Assembly (NCBI RefSeq): GCF_900109615.1
Contig: NZ_FOIX01000002.1
Span: 62,001-126,000, forward strand
Direction of reading: 5' to 3'
DNA length: 64,000 bases
Origin: Kaistella antarctica
GTDB lineage: Bacteria > Bacteroidota > Bacteroidia > Flavobacteriales > Weeksellaceae
Part shown: positions 3-12,898 of the stretch, in pieces
Layout: every line of letters begins with the position of its first letter
Numbering within the stretch: position 1 is the first letter of the stretch
The notes under the pieces: generated by a model
Told to the model about the DNA's origin: nothing
Seen by the model: only the letters and a program-made list of their open reading frames with translations
Database searches by the model: none
Made by a program: the position numbers and the translations under genes

Positions 3-1511
3 AAGGCATATAGTGGACTCTTTAAGAAAGACGTTCAAATACATTATAATGATAATAATGGTTACAAATACACGATAGTAGATGCAGAACCAAGCACAAT
101 AATTACCTTAGACTATCAACTGTTGGATGGTACAAGTGAAACTCCTCAAACTGTATCCATTGCATCCCGATCAAGATCCACAGGGACGATTGACGTTTAC
201 TTTAACCATCCCGTTGACACATCGTACGCTCAAGGACAAAACGCAGTTAATCTTGGGAATACCTTAGATGATAAGTTAATTTCGTACATTAATTCAACAT
301 CAAGTTCACTTGACATCGCGATCTACAACTCATATTCTCCAAGTTCCACAACGGGAATTGCGGGTGCGATAAATGATGCGTTTGATCGAGGGGTGCAAGT
401 GCGAATAATATATGATGGTAGTACAGGAAGTACAATGATACCATTACTAAATAATTCGATTCCAAGACTCGCGAGTCCGAATAATAGTAGTTATGGTATT
501 ATGCACAACAAGTTTTTAATTTTTGACGCAAATAGTACTGATGAAAATAAACCAATCGTTTGGACGGGTTCTACAAATTGGACGGTTGCACAGATTGACG
601 GGCCTGACAAGAATAGTGCAATTGTCATCCAAGACAAATCTTTAGCATTGGGTTATCAAATCGAATTTGAAGAGATGTGGGGATCTTCAACAAGTACACC
701 TATACCATTTAATTCGAGATTCGGTCCTTACAAGATAGATAACACACCTCACACTTATAATATCGGTGGCAAGATAGTAAACAGTTATTTCAGTCCAAGT
801 GATGGTACGACATCCAAAATAATTGATGTTATTAATAGTGCGGATACAGATATTAACGTAGCAACAATGTTAATTACAAGAACTGATATTAGTGGTGCAC
901 TGATCAGTAAATACAACAATGGATTAAGTTCCACGCAACTTATAATGGATACTCAAAACCCACAGGGTAACCAAAAGGCATTATTACAGACGGAGATCGG
1001 TGCAAACAGAGTAAGAACGGATACTTCAAGAGGAGTTATGCACCATAAATTCATGGTGGTAGATAATTACGACAGTTCATCTGATCCTACAGTGCTTGTT
1101 GGATCTCACAATTGGAGTGCTTCCGCTGAAAATAGGAATGATGAAAACACATTAATCATTCACGACTTGAATATTGCCAACCAATATTATCAAGCATTTG
1201 CGTCTCTATTCAAACTGTCAGGTGGAGTCATCACAAATCCATTAGCAGTTGTTGAAAACCAATTGGTAAAAAATAACTATATCATCTATCCAAACCCAAG
1301 TAACGGAGTTATCAATATTCAAAGTAAAAATATTTTCGTCGGTAATAGTGATGTAAGAATTTATGATGCTACGGGTAAAAAAATAATTCAAGAAACATGG
1401 AGCGATTTCAACATAAAAAGTGTTGACCTAACTCTCCAATCAAGTGGCATTTATTTTGTGGTAATTACAAATGCATTGGGAGTTGATTATGTTAAAATTA
1501 TTAAATATTAA
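3..1511 (+). CDS. Secreted phospholipase D-like protein with T9SS sorting tail (5' partial)
   Basis: The frame is open from the window edge, so the gene begins upstream and the N-terminus is missing; a TTG at 123 is only an internal codon. Two HxKxxxxD (HKD) motifs are visible, at nt 501-527 (MHNKFLIFD) and 1038-1064 (MHHKFMVVD), each followed by a G-S-x-N-W motif. This is the two-half layout of the phospholipase D/nuclease superfamily. The C-terminus has a YPNPSNG motif and a short beta-rich tail ending in lysine, the type A sorting domain of the Bacteroidetes type IX secretion system, so the protein is probably exported or surface-attached. The substrate (phospholipid or nucleic acid) cannot be told from sequence. 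Confidence 0.85.
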   Translation, partial: KAYSGLFKKDVQIHYNDNNGYKYTIVDAEPSTIITLDYQLLDGTSETPQTVSIASRSRSTGTIDVYFNHPVDTSYAQGQNAVNLGNTLDDKLISYINSTSSSLDIAIYNSYSPSSTTGIAGAINDAFDRGVQVRIIYDGSTGSTMIPLLNNSIPRLASPNNSSYGIMHNKFLIFDANSTDENKPIVWTGSTNWTVAQIDGPDKNSAIVIQDKSLALGYQIEFEEMWGSSTSTPIPFNSRFGPYKIDNTPHTYNIGGKIVNSYFSPSDGTTSKIIDVINSADTDINVATMLITRTDISGALISKYNNGLSSTQLIMDTQNPQGNQKALLQTEIGANRVRTDTSRGVMHHKFMVVDNYDSSSDPTVLVGSHNWSASAENRNDENTLIIHDLNIANQYYQAFASLFKLSGGVITNPLAVVENQLVKNNYIIYPNPSNGVINIQSKNIFVGNSDVRIYDATGKKIIQETWSDFNIKSVDLTLQSSGIYFVVITNALGVDYVKIIKY

Positions 1512-3845: not shown

Positions 3846-4997
3846 ATGATCACAGAACAACTAAAATCCTTTTTTTCAATTCTAAATACAAAAGTTGATT
3901 TTGTAAATAACGTAAAAAAAGAATACAGCAAATTTTTGGCTTCAGATTTTAATTCTCTCGATTTCTTAAAGTTCGGAGAAAATAAGGCGTCAGAGATTAT
4001 TGCGTTTTTTTTAGATCCAAATGAGTCGCATGGTCAAGGAGACTTGTACCTGAATCTTTTTTTAGTAGAGTTAGGAATTGACTTCCGTTATGATAAATTT
4101 ACAGATGTTATTTCTGTAGTTGAAAAAAACACTGATGATCGACGAAGAATCGACATTTTTGTTAAATCTAAATCACACAAAACTTTATTTGGCATTGAGA
4201 ACAAGATTTATGTAAGTACTGCCGATCAACTAAATCAAATTAACGATTACTTAGAATTTTTAGATAAGCAAGCGATAGATCATGATTTCACTTTGTTTTA
4301 TTTAGCACCCCGAGGTAAAACAGTTAGTACTTTAAGTTTTAATGAAGACTTACTTAATCAAAAATATAGTGCAGATTGTCTCAAATTTATTACCTATGAG
4401 GATGATATGATCCCTTTGATTCATGAATTTGGTCTTAGAACTGAAAATAACAGAGTACAAGCATTTCTATTTGACTTCGAAAGAAAACTTCAAAAATTAT
4501 ATATGGGAAATAGTGAAATTAATGAAACACAAATAGTGAGAGATTTTATTTGCGAGTCGAGTGCTAATCTTGAAACGTCTTTTGCAATTACGAATAATAT
4601 TGGTGCCGTAAAATCTGAATTATTAAGAAATTTTGATCAGCAAATGAAAGAAATTTCAGCTGAACTAAATATTCAATTAGATGCTGATCCATATAGATTT
4701 ACTTTAGAGAAATTAAAAAACTTTAAAGTAGGTGTAAGTTTCGAAGACGGTGGAGTATTCTACGGAATAGTCCGTACTGCTCAAGTCTTGGAAAAGAAAC
4801 GACTTTTAGAAATTGAAATGCTTTTTCTCTATAACTTAGAGAGTAGCAAGTGGTGGCCAATTTATATTTGGGGTTTTAAAGACATCGAATCAAACTTTTC
4901 CTTTTGGCAAGCAATAATAGATGGAAGTATTAAAAAACAAATTAAAGAATTCATTTTAGTGCTCCTCAATAGTTCTTATTCACTAAAAGAAGTTTAA
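3846..4997 (+). CDS. PD-(D/E)XK nuclease superfamily protein
   Basis: A 383-residue protein. The N-terminal half carries the nuclease fold: E50 in KASEIIAFFLDP, SHGQGDLYL at 61-69, D103 in RRRIDIFV, E118-N-K120 in FGIENKI, and Q131 in the following helix. This order matches the PDDEXK_4 type, in which Asp, Glu and Lys bind the metal and act in phosphodiester cleavage. The C-terminal half (about 230-383) is an unassigned alpha/beta region with a Trp-rich segment, perhaps for target recognition. No methyltransferase is adjacent, so it is not a normal restriction-modification pair. It sits in the putative defence island. Confidence 0.75.
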   Translation: MITEQLKSFFSILNTKVDFVNNVKKEYSKFLASDFNSLDFLKFGENKASEIIAFFLDPNESHGQGDLYLNLFLVELGIDFRYDKFTDVISVVEKNTDDRRRIDIFVKSKSHKTLFGIENKIYVSTADQLNQINDYLEFLDKQAIDHDFTLFYLAPRGKTVSTLSFNEDLLNQKYSADCLKFITYEDDMIPLIHEFGLRTENNRVQAFLFDFERKLQKLYMGNSEINETQIVRDFICESSANLETSFAITNNIGAVKSELLRNFDQQMKEISAELNIQLDADPYRFTLEKLKNFKVGVSFEDGGVFYGIVRTAQVLEKKRLLEIEMLFLYNLESSKWWPIYIWGFKDIESNFSFWQAIIDGSIKKQIKEFILVLLNSSYSLKEV

Positions 4998-5598: not shown

Positions 5599-6855
5599 TT
5601 AAACATACAGTTTTCCAATGATTTCAGAGGATAACGATTTAGTATCTCGATAGTTTTCACCATCAATAATCGATATAAATCCAACCTTGCAGAAGTTTTG
5701 AATAGGTTTAAACTCATTTTCAAACTCGAAGATTGGGTTGTGGTAGTATTTTCCGAATTGCGAGTCCTGTTGATCTATTTTAGGGTACAACAAAATACTC
5801 TTACTTGATTTCCAATGAAGATTGTAAGTAAACATTTGTTTTAGATCATCGTCAGAAGGATTGCTATTATCAACAATTTTCCACTTTGTATCGATGATAA
5901 ATGTTTCGTCAGTTTTTAATTCCTTGATAACGATGTCGGGTCGGATTGTTTTGTTCTCCCAAAATAGATCTCGATCCTGCGAACTGATTTCAAATTGATT
6001 GTCCACATTATGTTTCTGTAATACTCGGTAGATGTATTCCTCCCAAAGTTTATTCATGTCGAATAGTAGGGTCAACATCTGATCACTACCTGAATTTAGA
6101 TTTGGTGAATAATTTAGAATAAGCATCTTTGCTATGTCTAATGATTTCTCGTATGGTCGCGATTTTCTATCTAATTTTAGATTTTCAAAGTGCTTACTAT
6201 TAAATTCTTTATAGGTGAAATTATTAAATTCAAATAGTAAACGTTTCACCTTGTCTTGTAGTTTTTGTGTTACTAAATTATCCAAAATGGTTAACGCTTG
6301 AAAGAGAATTTGATGAATCAAGTGGTCTTTGTCATAAACCTGATGTTCACAATAAAACCTTTCTTTGTGAACAATGTTTTTCTCAATATCACGGGAGAAA
6401 ACCAACTTGCCCTTTAATGCCAATTGGTTGTTTTCAACCCTTCTGTATTTCTTGATTAGTCCCTTCTTAACCAATTGCTCCAAATCATTTAGAAAAATTT
6501 CAAAATATACTTCTAAAATGGAATTGTGTTTCTTTTTTAAACCTGTTTCGGATACGGTATCTACTTTTATATATCTGCATACTCTCAACATATTGATTAG
6601 AACATTCTGCCATAGTTTTTTACTTGGGTCAGATGAATTATCTGCCTTAGGTAGAATTTCTATTGTCAAGCCACCAACTTGGATCACTCCGACGTACGAA
6701 TTAAATAGAATTCCATTGTAAACAGGTGTGAAATATTTGTTACCGTTTTTTTCATTGAACTTCACAAGTGATTTAAAATGATTTTCAGAAAAATCACCAT
6801 CACCAATTTTTAGTTTTTGATACTCAAATACCTGTATGAAATTTTTAGAGTTCAT
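5599..6855 (-). CDS. mcrC: McrC-family subunit of type IV restriction system
   Basis: A 418-residue protein, last gene of a three-gene minus-strand operon, starting 5 bp after the McrB-like stop. The N-terminal beta domain and the middle block (LEVYFEIFLNDLEQLVKKGL, residues 114-133) match McrC. The C-terminal PD-(D/E)XK nuclease is visible as E273 in WEEYI, D307 in RPDIVI and D322-T-K324 in IIDTKWK. In known McrBC the McrC subunit is the endonuclease and stimulates McrB NTP hydrolysis, cutting modified DNA between distant sites. Catalytic residues are intact, so the enzyme is probably active. Confidence 0.9.
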   Translation of the reverse strand: MNSKNFIQVFEYQKLKIGDGDFSENHFKSLVKFNEKNGNKYFTPVYNGILFNSYVGVIQVGGLTIEILPKADNSSDPSKKLWQNVLINMLRVCRYIKVDTVSETGLKKKHNSILEVYFEIFLNDLEQLVKKGLIKKYRRVENNQLALKGKLVFSRDIEKNIVHKERFYCEHQVYDKDHLIHQILFQALTILDNLVTQKLQDKVKRLLFEFNNFTYKEFNSKHFENLKLDRKSRPYEKSLDIAKMLILNYSPNLNSGSDQMLTLLFDMNKLWEEYIYRVLQKHNVDNQFEISSQDRDLFWENKTIRPDIVIKELKTDETFIIDTKWKIVDNSNPSDDDLKQMFTYNLHWKSSKSILLYPKIDQQDSQFGKYYHNPIFEFENEFKPIQNFCKVGFISIIDGENYRDTKSLSSEIIGKLYV

Positions 6856-6860
6856 TTATT

Positions 6861-9764
6861 TCATTGATCATTATAATCATTATAAATAGAATAAAAATCA
6901 TTGGCGGTCATTTGTTCAATATCTTTGAAGGTGTAAATTTTCTTGTCGGTTAAGAAATCTACATCTTCGTAGCCTTTGAATTTGGACAGGATTTTTTTGT
7001 TATCCTGTGCTGAGTTGGTTTCAACGAATTGATCACCTAAAACTAACCCAATTTTACCAAAATCTCCAAAAAAATACTCTTCTAATAAAGGAATAATTTT
7101 GTTTTTGAAAGTGATTTTTAAATCTGCAAGGGAGTTGACACCAATGAAATATGAATGACCAATTTGATGATCCTTATCCACTAAAAGTTCTATTCGCTTA
7201 TTAATTATATCAATCAATTCAATTAGATTAATGTTGGGAGATTCTTGAATAATACCTCCGTTCTCGTGTGCTGTTCTAATTACTTCGGGATCAGATTTCA
7301 TTTCCGTAAAGGAGAATCTTCGTCTTAAAGCAGTATCCAACGATTCAACACTTCGATCCGCAGTATTCATGGTTCCAATTATGTATAAATTTGGAGGAAC
7401 ACCAAATGATTCTTTGCTATATGGAAGTATTACTTCAATTTTCTCATCATTGCCTAATCTCTTATCATCCTCAATTAACGTAATTAACTCACCGAAAATT
7501 GCAGAAATATTACCTCTGTTTATTTCATCGATTATCAGTACATATTTGTTACGTGAAAATTTTTCATTTTCTGAAGGATCATCCTCTTTATATTCAGACA
7601 AATTGAACTGAGATTTCATAAATCCAACGATATCCTGCATGTCCTTTTGAAATGCACCCGATGGTCTTGCCTTTTTATTTTGGTAAGTATCTGAAATGTT
7701 TTGTTTAGTTATCGTAAAGGAATATTGAGATGGAGTATCTAAAGACGAATATTTTAGTGAATTTTTTGACGATAATCCGTATTCCCACGAGCCTATTTTT
7801 AATAGTTCAGCATTGGAAATTTTACTTTTCACTATTTCAATTAATGCTTCCCAACTTTCCTCAAAATTATTAGAAGGAACTGAACTATGGTTTTCTATTG
7901 CAGTTGTGCAAATGGTTTTGAAAATACCACTTTGTATTTCGTAAGATAAATCACCCTCTTCATCTCCTTTCATAGATGGTTTTATTCCTTCAATAAAGTC
8001 TTCATAACTCATACTTTGGTGGAAGGTTGTAAATTTAATTTGATTGTTTTGAATACCTTGGTCGTAAAGTTTAAGGATTTCCGCACGATCTTTTTTTGTG
8101 TTGCCAAATTTTCGATCTTCAATAATTTCAACCGCTAATTTCTTTGTACTGTAGGTTTTTCCTGAACCTGGGCAACCGAAGAGGATTTGATTAAGTGGAT
8201 GGTTCATTTTGTTTTGGTTTAATTGTGAAATTCTTAATATCTCGTCGAATTGTTCTTTTGTCGCAGTGAAATTTGTTCCCTGATTTCCGACTTTTAATGA
8301 TGAGAGAATTGAATTCAATTTCAGATCCTTCCACAATAACGGGTTAGCGGAAAAATTTTCAATAATTTTGATTCCTGTACGATCTTTATTAGGATTGAAG
8401 TCGGATTTATAAAATTTAATTTCTTCTTGATTATCATCTATAATTCCCACATCAGATGTTACTTCAGCAAGACCGTAGCATCCTGAATTTTCTCCCGTCA
8501 TCCACAGTATTACTTTGTCTCCAATCTTTATCTTATCCTTATGAGCAGCAACTTGCCAATTAGACAATACGTTAGCATTTAGAGCACCTACAATATCGTA
8601 ATACTTGGGATTTCCCTGAAAAATCCAATAATTAGTTTTGGTATTTTTTGAAAAATCAAGTCCCAATATTAAAGTCCTAAAATCTTTGTCAAATACCATT
8701 CGCTCTATGAAGGGGTTGTTATATTTGAGATAACTTGATCTTACTGTTTTATCAATGACTTCTTTAATTGCAAGGTCTATCTCTTTTTGTTTTTGGTCAA
8801 GTAGATCTAAGTCTTTAATATGATTTAGGTAAGAATTAATTGAAGAATCGAATTTTTCAGATTTTTCTCCAAACTGTCCGTCCGAAATTATCTTGAATAT
8901 TTCATGATTGTTTACCGATTTTAAGCACCAAACGTACTTTTGACCGATGGTAAAATTAAGTTGATTATCAGAAACATTAAAAACACATTTTTGAGTTCCT
9001 TTTTTAATACTAAATTCTTCAATTATTTCGTCTAAATAAGAGAAATATATCGCAAGATTATTATTTGTGAAACTATTCAGAATACCATTATAGATACCTT
9101 TTACATCTCCTCTATAACCAACATACAGAAGATTTTGAATCATTAAATTGGTGTCATCCCAATCAGGTTTAGGGTAAAATGTTCTATAAGCAGAAACGAA
9201 GTCTTCTCTTAGATTGATTACCTCATTAAATTTTGGTAACTGCTCTTGAAGCGTTATGTAACTCTCCTTGCTTGATGATTTTGGATCAAGGTTAAACTCT
9301 GAACAAAATTCTTTAAAGAATGAAGATTTGTATAGACTATATTTGTCAGGGTGTCGAAAACCAAGGTAAACTGATATTGTTCTCTCGTCCTGTTGAGCAT
9401 TGAATTTTTCAACCTTCAGATCGTCTTTTAATAAAACTAAAATTTTTTCTGAGTCCTGTTGGAAAGTATTAATTTTATCTTTTAAGTCAATGTCTTCACA
9501 ATACAACTTTCGAAACATTTCTCGTGTTTCCTCAGGAAATCTATCTACCGATTTAGATATAAATCCCCATGAGTTTTGATACAATAAATTACCCGTTTTT
9601 GCGAACGATTTTTTAAACATCTTAGCGAACTGAGGATCATCTATATTCCAATTTTGTTGAAAGTGATTTATTGCATCATATTTATATCCTTCGTTTGGTT
9701 CACCTGTAATTTTTGTAATTGATAAATATCGGTCAATAATTTTATTAACTATTTGTTCGTCCAT
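6861..9764 (-). CDS. mcrB: McrB-like AAA+ NTPase with EVE reader domain
   Basis: A 967-residue protein. Residues 1-370 are an unassigned helical N-terminal part. Residues about 378-510 are an EVE (PUA-like) domain (NYWIFQGNP, later KIGDKVILWMTG and CYGLAEVTS), a fold known to bind modified bases. The AAA+ motor follows: Walker A GCPGSGKT at 530-537, Walker B VLIIDEINRG at 742-751, McrB-specific MNTADRS at 799-805 and an LRRRFSF arginine finger at 813-819. McrB motors hydrolyse GTP and drive the McrC nuclease. The EVE domain in place of the classic DUF3578 reader implies a different modified base. It lies 12 bp after the preceding operon gene. Confidence 0.92.
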   Translation of the reverse strand: MDEQIVNKIIDRYLSITKITGEPNEGYKYDAINHFQQNWNIDDPQFAKMFKKSFAKTGNLLYQNSWGFISKSVDRFPEETREMFRKLYCEDIDLKDKINTFQQDSEKILVLLKDDLKVEKFNAQQDERTISVYLGFRHPDKYSLYKSSFFKEFCSEFNLDPKSSSKESYITLQEQLPKFNEVINLREDFVSAYRTFYPKPDWDDTNLMIQNLLYVGYRGDVKGIYNGILNSFTNNNLAIYFSYLDEIIEEFSIKKGTQKCVFNVSDNQLNFTIGQKYVWCLKSVNNHEIFKIISDGQFGEKSEKFDSSINSYLNHIKDLDLLDQKQKEIDLAIKEVIDKTVRSSYLKYNNPFIERMVFDKDFRTLILGLDFSKNTKTNYWIFQGNPKYYDIVGALNANVLSNWQVAAHKDKIKIGDKVILWMTGENSGCYGLAEVTSDVGIIDDNQEEIKFYKSDFNPNKDRTGIKIIENFSANPLLWKDLKLNSILSSLKVGNQGTNFTATKEQFDEILRISQLNQNKMNHPLNQILFGCPGSGKTYSTKKLAVEIIEDRKFGNTKKDRAEILKLYDQGIQNNQIKFTTFHQSMSYEDFIEGIKPSMKGDEEGDLSYEIQSGIFKTICTTAIENHSSVPSNNFEESWEALIEIVKSKISNAELLKIGSWEYGLSSKNSLKYSSLDTPSQYSFTITKQNISDTYQNKKARPSGAFQKDMQDIVGFMKSQFNLSEYKEDDPSENEKFSRNKYVLIIDEINRGNISAIFGELITLIEDDKRLGNDEKIEVILPYSKESFGVPPNLYIIGTMNTADRSVESLDTALRRRFSFTEMKSDPEVIRTAHENGGIIQESPNINLIELIDIINKRIELLVDKDHQIGHSYFIGVNSLADLKITFKNKIIPLLEEYFFGDFGKIGLVLGDQFVETNSAQDNKKILSKFKGYEDVDFLTDKKIYTFKDIEQMTANDFYSIYNDYNDQ

Positions 9765-9776
9765 TATAAAGAATTC

Positions 9777-10487
9777 TTATGATTTTGGAATGTAAATTCC
9801 TCCTGTCCCATTTAAAATTTTATCGTTGAGATCTTTACCAAAGTTGTTTTTGGAGATCTGTGAAAGTTCTCTATAAAGTTTTTTAAACTCATCGGAACTC
9901 TTATCTAATTTTGTAAAATACTTTTTAAGTGCAATCTGAGTCTCACCGCCACTACCTGCGGAGTCATAACCTTCGATAGTAGATCCTTTATAGCCAAGAT
10001 ATTTACTCGGTGCAAATAATCCTTCTTTTGGATAGTAATACCAATGAAAGAACGATGAATAATATTTACGAACTTGAGATGGTTCATTTTTATCTACCTC
10101 TTGGAACGATGTGAAATTATCTACAATATCTTCCCACGATTCTACGGTAACCTTTTTTGAAACTTTATACTCCTCACCCTCATGTAGTAACTCAAATTTA
10201 TTTTTAATGATGAAATCTGTGTCTTCACAGCGTATCCAATCAGTATTCTTATAAATTAATATTTCGAACATTCCATCTCCTTCAGTAGTTTTGAACATAC
10301 AGACTACAATATCATTATCCTTTTTGCCATCAAGTTCCTTCAAATCTTCAATTATAAATTTTTTCGCAACACTCAAATCTTTATGTTCAAAATTTACTCC
10401 TTGGAAAGGTTCTAATTTATGATAGTCTTCATAGTCATTATTAACTCCATAGTAATCAAATGTGTAAAATAGGTCGTTCTTTTCCAT
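9777..10487 (-). CDS. Uncharacterised first gene of the Mcr operon
   Basis: A 236-residue soluble protein transcribed first in the operon with mcrB and mcrC. I do not recognise the N-terminal half (1-125). The C-terminal half holds an aromatic, glycine-rich segment: FFHWYYYPKEGLFAPSKYLGYKG at about 146-168 split by tyrosines, then EGYDSAGSGGETQ. It ends with an alpha-helical stretch and GTGGIYIPKS. Similar aromatic F-x-P-S-K-x-x-G-Y patterns occur, as I recall, in domains linked to HNH or modification-dependent endonucleases, which would suit a second DNA reader. That link is inference. Confidence 0.6.
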   Translation of the reverse strand: MEKNDLFYTFDYYGVNNDYEDYHKLEPFQGVNFEHKDLSVAKKFIIEDLKELDGKKDNDIVVCMFKTTEGDGMFEILIYKNTDWIRCEDTDFIIKNKFELLHEGEEYKVSKKVTVESWEDIVDNFTSFQEVDKNEPSQVRKYYSSFFHWYYYPKEGLFAPSKYLGYKGSTIEGYDSAGSGGETQIALKKYFTKLDKSSDEFKKLYRELSQISKNNFGKDLNDKILNGTGGIYIPKS

Positions 10488-10698: not shown

Positions 10699-12474
10699 GT
10701 GACTAACGATCTATCTTACCAAGTATATTCCCCGACCTCAGTACTTGGGATTTTTAGCAATGCTTTGAAGTTACCTGCAACAATTAATCTAATATATTTA
10801 AAAGGTCGTTATTCTTACGGTGGAGGAAAAGCATATTCTAATTATTATTTCGATTTACTGTATTCAGAGGGAGGCAGTATTTCAATTGCCGTTAAAATGA
10901 GTGCCACTCTAAGAAGTAAGATTAATAATGGTGATGTATACACGTTACGTGGCTTTATTGAAAAGAAAGTAAGAAACTCAAGCATAGAACTCGTTTTTGT
11001 TGTTGATGAAATAGTATCACAGGATGAGAAACAAATTAGTGAGGAAGACCTTCAACGATTCGATCTTATACGAAGTAAGTTAGAGAAAGGTTCAAGAGAT
11101 TTAGAAACCTTTATCCGTGAGAAAAAATTAAAAAACGAATCCATCAGAGTTGCAAATATTTTTGGTAATTCCGCCATAGTTCAACGAGATTTTTTGGAAG
11201 GTCTTGATGTTTCACAAAATCAATTTGAGATTACAGATTTCACTTGTAATATTACTTCATCAACATCGATACTCGATAAAATAAGAGAGATAAGTCTATT
11301 GGATTTTCACATCGTAGGAATTGTACGAGGTGGGGGAGATCAACAAAGTTTCGATGCTTTTAATGACGTTATTTTAGCAGAATATTTTATTCAATCTGAT
11401 TTACTTACGATCACTGCTATAGGTCATACCGTAGATGAAACACTTATCGATAAATTGGCTGACAAACGATTTCACTTACCTCATGATTACGGTGCAGGAT
11501 TACATAATATTATTGATAAATTATCTCAGGAAAAATCTAATTCGAGAGCAATACTTATCGATGAAGTGAAAAAGGACATTACTAAACAGTTTACTGAACA
11601 GGTAAATACCCTTGGTTCGCAATTGAAAAAGAAAAATGAAGAGTTTGTACAGGCTCAGAAAACTTACAAAGAACAGGTTGAAAATCAAACTAAATCATTC
11701 AATACCCAACTGAAGAAGCGTAACGAAGAAGTCGAGAAACTGAAGAAAGATTTATCACAAAAACATACTGAACAAGTACAGACACTTGCAAATCAACTTA
11801 AAAAGAAGAATGAAGAATTTGTTGAATCTCAAAAAACTTATAAAGAACAGGTTGAAAATCAGACTAAATCTTTTAATGATCAATTAAAAGCCCGAAATTC
11901 TGAGGTTGAAAAATTAAAGAAAGACTTATCGGAGAAACATACTGAACAGGTTAAAACTATCGCTACTCAGTTACAAAAGAAAAATGAAGAATTCCTTGAA
12001 TCTCAGAAGACCTACAAAGAACAAGTTGAGAATCAGACAAAACTTTTTAATGAGCAGTTAAAAATAAGAAATGAAGAAGTTGATAAACTGAAAAAAGATC
12101 TATCAGAAAAACATGCTGAACAGGTAAAAACACTTCAAGAACAGTTAACTAAAAGGAATGATGAGTTTCAAAAGTTCCAAGACTCTTCAACAAAGCAATC
12201 ACAAGACTTACAAAAGAATTTCCAAGATCAGCAGAAGCAACGGATTGAGGAAATGGAAAACTACAAGAAAGAAATTGCAACTCTTCATGATAAGAATATC
12301 CAATCCGCAGTCAATGAACAAACAGCACAACTCAGTGCGAATCTATCCAACTCTGCACAAGAGATTGATGAATTAAAGTTGAACTTGAAAAACAAAGGAG
12401 TCAATTATCTTTATATTGTGTTGGCAGTTGTGATGGGATTGCTTATTGGATTAATGATTAATAGGTTATTCTAA
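10699..12474 (+). CDS. XseA-like nuclease with tandem coiled-coil repeats and C-terminal TM anchor
   Basis: A 591-residue protein starting at GTG; an in-frame stop lies 13 bp upstream and the next Met is residue 66. Residues 1-110 look like the OB fold of exonuclease VII large subunit. The catalytic core (145-275) keeps D164 (VQRDF), R210 (VRGGGD), H243 and D246 (IGHTVDETL) and the LADKR motif, matching the conserved D, R, H, D set of XseA. The usual RGGGS is RGGGD. From 300 to about 526 there are four 58-residue coiled-coil repeats, then a charged helix and a transmembrane segment at about 570-590. XseA normally ends without a membrane anchor and pairs with XseB; no xseB is nearby. It is divergent from the Mcr operon. 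Confidence 0.8.
   Translation: MTNDLSYQVYSPTSVLGIFSNALKLPATINLIYLKGRYSYGGGKAYSNYYFDLLYSEGGSISIAVKMSATLRSKINNGDVYTLRGFIEKKVRNSSIELVFVVDEIVSQDEKQISEEDLQRFDLIRSKLEKGSRDLETFIREKKLKNESIRVANIFGNSAIVQRDFLEGLDVSQNQFEITDFTCNITSSTSILDKIREISLLDFHIVGIVRGGGDQQSFDAFNDVILAEYFIQSDLLTITAIGHTVDETLIDKLADKRFHLPHDYGAGLHNIIDKLSQEKSNSRAILIDEVKKDITKQFTEQVNTLGSQLKKKNEEFVQAQKTYKEQVENQTKSFNTQLKKRNEEVEKLKKDLSQKHTEQVQTLANQLKKKNEEFVESQKTYKEQVENQTKSFNDQLKARNSEVEKLKKDLSEKHTEQVKTIATQLQKKNEEFLESQKTYKEQVENQTKLFNEQLKIRNEEVDKLKKDLSEKHAEQVKTLQEQLTKRNDEFQKFQDSSTKQSQDLQKNFQDQQKQRIEEMENYKKEIATLHDKNIQSAVNEQTAQLSANLSNSAQEIDELKLNLKNKGVNYLYIVLAVVMGLLIGLMINRLF
11596..12276 (+). repeat. 174-bp tandem repeats coding 58-residue coiled coil
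   Basis: Three close copies begin at 11596, 11770 and 11944, each 174 bp, starting EQV and ending KDLS-x-KH. A fourth, degenerate copy begins at 12118. Shared residues include KKNEEF, QKTYKEQVENQTK and EVEKLKKDL. The copies differ at many codons, so they are diverged rather than fresh duplications. Confidence 0.9.
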
Positions 12475-12547: not shown

Positions 12548-12583
12548 AAATATGTTGCTATAGATTATAGCAACATATTTTTT
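12548..12583 (+). terminator. Strong intrinsic terminator after XseA-like gene
   Basis: A perfect 15-bp inverted repeat, AAATATGTTGCTATA (12548-12562), loop GAT, and its complement ending at 12580, followed by more Ts. It lies 73 bp after the XseA-like stop. The A-rich left flank means it may also stop transcription on the other strand. It also lies just upstream of the next gene's -7 box and could act as an operator. Confidence 0.75.
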
Positions 12584-12616: not shown

Positions 12617-12898
12617 ATGAAATTACAGGTGAGAATTAAAGAGGGGGTTGCTTTGAAGGTAGGTAACGAACCGCAATCGGTGATCGTAGAATTTGTGGAT
12701 GATAAAGAAAAACAACGGTTCGAAGTTCTATTTTATGACTTGGATCCATTTCAGTTAGGAATTAGGTTATGGGACATTTGGGAACTAACGATAAAGTGGA
12801 AATCTGAAATCTTTACCGATCCCAAAACCGAAGTGAAATCTTACTTCACCCATTTAACTTGTACCAAAGCAAAACCAATTATGCAGATGCAGAAGTGA
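12617..12898 (+). CDS. Hypothetical small soluble protein
   Basis: A 93-residue protein, mostly beta by eye (MKLQVRIKEGVAL, then VIVEFVD, then RFEVLFYDLDPF), with Trp-rich LWDIWELTIKW near 57-67 and a C-terminal strand. It has no signal peptide or TM segment and I recognise no family. The ATG is four bases after a TATATTTG box, so the mRNA may be leaderless. It lies inside the island between the XseA-like gene and the papain-like protein. Confidence 0.55.
   Translation: MKLQVRIKEGVALKVGNEPQSVIVEFVDDKEKQRFEVLFYDLDPFQLGIRLWDIWELTIKWKSEIFTDPKTEVKSYFTHLTCTKAKPIMQMQK

Follow-up and report, generated by a model that had tools for sequence, protein, structure and literature searches.

The gene at 10699..12474 (+) in the window, as we call the whole 64,000-nucleotide stretch of Kaistella antarctica DNA analysed here, encodes an XseA-like nuclease that is anchored in the membrane by its tail and has no XseB partner. 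This tail-anchored, XseB-less form looks like an undescribed branch of exonuclease VII. Judging from the gene order in its relatives, it repeatedly lies beside a mobile SOS-mutagenesis cassette composed of ImuB, DnaE2, a LexA-like repressor and AlkB. Exonuclease VII has been treated as a soluble complex of XseA and XseB; here a conserved branch appears to have dropped XseB and gained a membrane anchor and a tether whose length is quantised. An XseB-free branch living near mobile SOS-mutagenesis genes implies that the catalytic unit of exonuclease VII can work in another setting, and a natural XseB-free enzyme offers a way to test what XseB does. The protein is also a candidate new component of the mobile SOS cassettes of Bacteroidota. 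We found no membrane-anchored XseA, and no XseA tied to an imuB-dnaE2 cassette, in the open-licence PMC literature, a search that does not prove absence.

Is the protein an exonuclease VII relative at all? The open reading frame is 591 amino acids long, and its GTG start aligns with the ATG starts of relatives. PF02601 matches residues 142-400 with 86.5 bits (gathering cut-off 35.9, E 3e-24), so that the profile covers the catalytic core, as the earlier note had required of an XseA-type nuclease. That note also looked to an OB domain and to structure prediction. The Pfam OB model, PF13742, is not among the matches of the protein, but the OB fold is present in the predicted structure: in a model of residues 1-314 (mean pLDDT 81.9), residues 6-110 (10714..11028, +) match OB folds in VIA and Foldseek comparisons. 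The best structural match of this model is 8txr, the Escherichia coli exonuclease VII large subunit (Foldseek E 2e-14). VIA aligns 280 residues with 8txr at Z 18.4 and an rmsd of 12.9, a high value that we attribute to rotation of the two domains relative to each other. A model of the whole protein has a poor tail (mean pLDDT 64.9).

The active site is kept. We aligned 52 tail-anchored sequences with 13 canonical XseAs. The predicted catalytic D164 (codon 11188..11190, +) is D in 51 of the 52 tail-anchored rows and in all 13 canonical ones; R210, in an RGGG motif (codon 11326..11328, +), is R in 52/52 and 13/13. In the GHTVD motif, which holds H243 to D246 (codons 11425..11436, +) and aligns with the H238A site of 8txr, the histidine is invariant among the rows without a gap (51/51 tail-anchored, 12/12 canonical). 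D246 is D in 45 of 51 tail-anchored rows, the rest having E or N, and the 12 canonical rows are split between D (five) and N (seven). The four residues and their numbers are thus exactly those named in the earlier note, in the same columns as in canonical XseAs. By profile, fold and active site the protein is a member of the exonuclease VII large-subunit superfamily; its nuclease activity and polarity are predicted.

The C-terminal half is where the protein departs from the canonical enzyme. A coiled coil built of 29/58-residue repeat units occupies residues 270-572 (11506..12414, +), modelled as helix. It is longer than had been described, about 303 residues and not about 226. The 58-residue repeat stands: Tandem Repeats Finder (TRF) reports an array at 11592..12135 (+) with a period of 174 bp, or 58 residues, and 3.1 copies, and by eye each 58-mer reads as two 29-mers. 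The membrane anchor proposed earlier is found in a C-terminal hydrophobic helix at about residues 570-588 (12406..12462, +; hydropathy 2.3 over 19 residues). We predict that this helix inserts with the N-terminus of the protein inside the cell. The K/R charge bias before the helix (2.6 vs 0.2) carries little weight, since the protein ends soon after it.

The same architecture of XseA core, coil and membrane helix, which the earlier note proposed to look for in other genomes, recurs as a family. We surveyed 40 open reading frames picked by length (at least 370 amino acids; broken copies left out, and one, L064, without its N-terminus). A C-terminal membrane helix is present in 40/40. The distance from catalytic domain to helix falls into classes of 125-129 (n=13), 155-158 (n=14) and 186-187 (n=12) residues, with the window protein at 303. 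Coil length therefore changes in 29-residue steps among these proteins, and the coil of the window protein, about 303 residues, equals 187 + 4 x 29. Eight more members lie on plasmids of Prevotella, Thermus, Azospira and Sulfuricystis and on one faecal phage scaffold. Hydropathy shows the terminal helix clearly in five of them (L132, L134-L137), in L138 it is visible by eye, in L133 it is weak (1.34), and the L131 protein is cut short and lacks it. On the betaproteobacterial plasmids of L136/L137 the xseA-like gene is divergent from a PD-(D/E)XK nuclease gene, near PRTRC genes.

The window protein is not the canonical XseA-XseB enzyme, since it fails on both the TIGR00237 score and the presence of XseB. 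Like canonical XseA (PF02601; 8txr), it combines an OB fold with a core that carries the D, R, H and D/N of the active site. Unlike it, it scores 75 bits against the xseA equivalog model TIGR00237, below the cut-off of 180, and it has a single long coil and a C-terminal membrane helix in place of the canonical C-terminal region. As the earlier note held, XseB is missing from the window genome: the best PF02609 match there scores 17.7 bits, under the cut-off, and lies in an open reading frame that reads as an unrelated haem-binding protein. Nor is there a second PF02601 match over cut-off elsewhere in the genome. These whole-genome searches rule out an overlooked xseB or a second xseA.

The absence of XseB extends to the family. 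PF02601 matches occur in 65/296 genomes of the window's family (59 over cut-off). Eight of the 65 score 194-226 bits, like canonical XseA, and nearly all others score 55-87 bits or lower. We searched for XseB in 57 of the 65, a set that omits G079 (canonical) and seven genomes with weak or broken matches. XseB is over cut-off in 7/57, exactly those with canonical XseA, and in 0/50 of the genomes holding only the divergent form. The earlier note would have been refuted had its homologues always come with a normal xseB in a housekeeping setting; this result speaks clearly against such a refutation. No examined family genome has both XseA forms above cut-off. On a tree of 65 protein sequences, made by a quick method with long-branch warnings, one branch (SH-aLRT 99) separates the 52 tail-anchored sequences from the 13 canonical XseAs. 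Relatives carry the annotation 'exodeoxyribonuclease VII large subunit', a label that calls for caution.

The gene is accessory and yet constrained. It is present in 50/173 genomes of the Chryseobacterium-type genus. With a broad profile, six genomes in a sample of 395 Bacteroidota scored over 250 bits and all others at most 81 bits, like canonical XseA; two of the six, G1014 and G497, are outside the window's family, and the sequence of G497 forms part of the profile. Weaker members with the same OB-XseA-coil-TM architecture occur in G544 and G568. Two scans of viral contigs gave no tail-anchored relative. Of 55 pairs, 8 have dS < 1.5, and in these dN/dS on the OB and catalytic part is 0.038-0.065; judged from these codon comparisons this part is under strong purifying selection. 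Together with the alignment of start codons, this rules out a chance open reading frame or pseudogene. Several genomes carry more than one copy, many of them broken or interrupted by stop codons, as in C. balustinum (L035, L064, L066, L070); multiple or broken copies are also seen in G1020, G281, G264, G250 and G259. Such copies point to rapid gain and loss.

What lies beside the gene in its relatives? An imuB/lexA pair is upstream of it, with lexA on the strand of the gene, in 16/43 named loci; in the other 27 no such pair is seen, and several of these end early at contig ends. By Pfam the block comprises a DnaE-type polymerase, an IMS polymerase, an HTH repressor, an AlkB-type oxygenase and a DJ-1 protein. 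In a count that includes fragments (62 copies, being the 65 rows minus three second pieces of the same copy), ImuB lies within 10 kb of at least 29 copies, in at least 26 of the 50 Chryseobacterium-type genomes, and 26 of these at least 29 copies have the imuB/lexA-upstream arrangement. ImuB is present in 47/50 genomes with the xseA-like gene vs 77/123 without it (Fisher p 1e-5, kinship ignored). In L054 alkB stops 11 nt before the xseA-like gene. Sixteen proteins around the gene are unrelated or have no Pfam name.

How much of this linkage is independent? On the tree, the label 'with cassette' changes four times (14 with, 26 without), so that many of the 16 or 29 cassette cases share common ancestry; they stand for more than one event, but for fewer than sixteen. 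In six loci the xseA-like gene is followed by genes for DUF3945 and topoisomerase III, presumably genes of an integrative and conjugative element (ICE). In 10 cassette-bearing genomes without the xseA-like gene, the slot behind the cassette holds unrelated cargo, and part of the linkage may thus reflect shared ICE cargo. The association also appears at a distance. In L124, a member with 29% identity from another family, imuB, dnaE2, an 80-aa gene, a fusion gene and the XseA-like gene lie on one strand, with a gap of about 44 nt before the last and a divergent SRAP gene. The fusion protein, of 974 aa (9682-12606 of L124, -), joins an ExoIII-type endonuclease, an ATP-dependent ligase and a LigD primase-polymerase, in what we read as a Bacteroidota mutasome operon.

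In the window itself the link is a predicted regulatory site. An exact copy of the predicted LexA-like operator palindrome, TTGCTATA-N3-TATAGCAA, lies at 12555..12573, 80 bp past the stop codon of the xseA-like gene. The exact palindrome occurs only once more in the genome, between imuB and lexA, where it overlaps the start of lexA. A reversed control pattern found one site with up to two mismatches; both real operator sites are exact. Behind the operator is a gene for a 93-aa protein (12617..12898, +) whose relatives (44-48%) sit directly downstream of dnaE2 in cassettes (L036, L054, L184). A palindrome of the same class occurs in 10 of the 16 cassettes with imuB/lexA upstream.

The repressor of the window genome has a Peptidase_S24 domain. 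In the part of PMC8565304 drawn on here, this repressor family is a proven SOS regulator in Bacteroidetes, with operators of the CTAA-N5-TTAG family that have diverged among the Weeksellaceae paralogues; an Elizabethkingia anophelis (E. anophelis) member and its divergent polymerase are induced by mitomycin C. The cassettes described there resemble ours in a repressor of HTH_3 and Peptidase_S24 domains encoded divergently from an error-prone polymerase, and in an operator of dyad-N5-dyad form; ours, CTAT-N5-ATAG, fits the CTAA-N5-TTAG family. They differ in that the same part of the source makes no mention of exodeoxyribonuclease VII, AlkB or an XseA-like gene.

Is the xseA-like gene itself under the repressor? 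An operator-class palindrome was not found before the gene, either in the window or, for the most part, in its relatives, and direct control by the SOS repressor through an operator in the gene's own promoter thus finds no support as the usual arrangement. A promoter-like TAnnTTTG is present upstream in 27/33. The gene is thus linked to the LexA-like repressor but, having an ordinary promoter and no upstream operator in most copies, is mostly not visibly controlled by it.

We favour, tentatively and at a little below an even chance, the reading that the protein is a tail-anchored, XseB-independent nuclease with a role in the DNA-damage response of mobile elements. A long coiled-coil rod, its last helix in the inner membrane, would hold the OB fold and exonuclease VII core out in the cytoplasm. 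If straight, the rod would measure about 45 nm in the window protein and about 19-28 nm in most relatives. There, at the membrane, the nuclease might act on DNA ends that are single-stranded or damaged, in partnership with translesion and end-joining enzymes that the element carries: ImuB, DnaE2 and AlkB and, in the distant relative, the ExoIII-ligase-PrimPol protein. The architecture, active site, absence of XseB, spread of the family, linkage to the SOS cassette and operator adjoining the gene in the window can all be read from sequence; the role in damage repair or tolerance is one that we infer. Part of a report on Vibrio cholerae (V. cholerae; PMC12004951) describes exonuclease VII mutants as sensitive to bile and ciprofloxacin, which fits a damage-repair role of enzymes of this class. 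Against the damage-response reading stand the 27 cassette-free loci, the nearest relatives from the window's own genus (L115, L116), which have neither cassette nor operator, and the defence-like surroundings of the Bacteroidales members. Nor does the reading explain what a repair nuclease would gain from a membrane tether.

A more elaborate version of the damage-response reading, which we think unlikely, would make the protein part of a mutagenic repair station of mobile elements. The tail-anchored nuclease, ImuB, DnaE2 and the ExoIII-ligase-PrimPol protein would trim, fill and join DNA at the inner membrane, and the 29-residue units of the coil would set the reach. The substrates would be DNA of the element or of the chromosome, for example single strands arriving by conjugation.

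A second explanation, which we regard as possible though doubtful, is a guard against incoming DNA, in which a tethered single-stranded-DNA nuclease waits where phage, plasmid or transforming DNA enters, as an element-borne means of defence or of excluding competitors. The membrane is the site of DNA entry, and the gene has the accessory, mobile character expected (50/173 genomes of the genus, frequent broken copies, ICE genes behind six loci, members on plasmids and a phage scaffold). Some copies do have defence genes next to them. In two Bacteroidales members a PDDEXK_4 nuclease gene scored as the candidate PDC-S26 adjoins the XseA-like gene, at L131:10692-11945 (19 nt apart) and L138:4749-6002 (2 nt), in opposite order; in L131 an S24 peptidase and a Y-family polymerase gene lie about 6 kb upstream. 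Around the gene in L132 lie PDC-S57, PDC-S01, WYL and AAA genes together with a type I restriction-modification system, and in L049 TmtA (1090 bits) is two genes away. The window has its own PDC-S26, a PDDEXK_4 nuclease gene 5.7 kb upstream (3846..4997, +) that may belong with the guard role, as well as an McrBC-type operon. Against the guard, PDC-S26 was not seen beside Chryseobacterium copies, and the window's defence genes do not recur beside the gene in the Chryseobacterium loci. PADLOC matched 0/10 cargo proteins beside cassettes without the xseA-like gene and 2/10 neighbours of non-cassette copies, one of which (a sigma-54 activator) is not credible. For the XseA-like protein itself PADLOC has no model, and its only matches, to ZorA, LmuB and JetC, are weak coiled-coil ones that we take as noise. 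Zorya ZorA, too, is a membrane protein whose long coiled coil lies in the cytoplasm; the XseA-like protein differs in having no MotA-like domain and no neighbouring ZorB match, and the similarity is coil to coil (best 28 bits).

The window's operon deserves separate comment, because the earlier note read the neighbourhood of a type IV restriction operon as a pointer to function. The operon is a real neighbour. Its McrC (PF10117, 209 bits), a 967-aa McrB-like AAA protein with an EVE domain (EVE + AAA_5; 6861-9764, -) and a 236-aa gene without a Pfam name together occupy 5599..10487 (-) and form a modification-dependent restriction operon. As a functional clue it did not survive. In tblastn searches of L001-L138 with McrB, McrC and the 236-aa protein, matches were confined to the window and loci overlapping it, bar one AAA_5 match in L124, which falls in a gene that scores as a type II restriction enzyme. 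The operon is therefore not conserved beside relatives, and we judge it to lie outside the system; what recurs there is the SOS-mutagenesis genes.

The earlier note also raised an abortive-infection effector, a nuclease that would stay inactive at the membrane and, on infection, destroy the DNA of its own cell. Overproduction of XseA kills E. coli, and an XseA without XseB may be harmful alone. The defence genes named above, beside the gene in the window (PDC-S26 included), at L131/L138, around L132 and near L049, would suit such a role as well. We nevertheless consider it very improbable: across the 43 named loci no gene for a sensor, an antitoxin or a partner is repeatedly found beside it, an ordinary promoter of its own precedes most copies, and the window's restriction operon is not conserved.

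Equally hard to credit is a housekeeping replacement of canonical exonuclease VII in lineages that lost XseA and XseB: canonical XseA is found in 8/296 family genomes and never together with the divergent form above cut-off in the examined genomes, but a housekeeping gene would be near universal and in a fixed place, and this one is patchy (50/173 genomes of the genus), multiple or broken in many genomes and set in mobile surroundings, with neither form in most family genomes.

Two minor observations complete the picture of the surroundings. Most of the sampled family genomes carry neither a canonical nor a divergent XseA. Near the start of the window, at 123-1511 (+), lies a gene for a phospholipase-D-like protein with a Por secretion tail.
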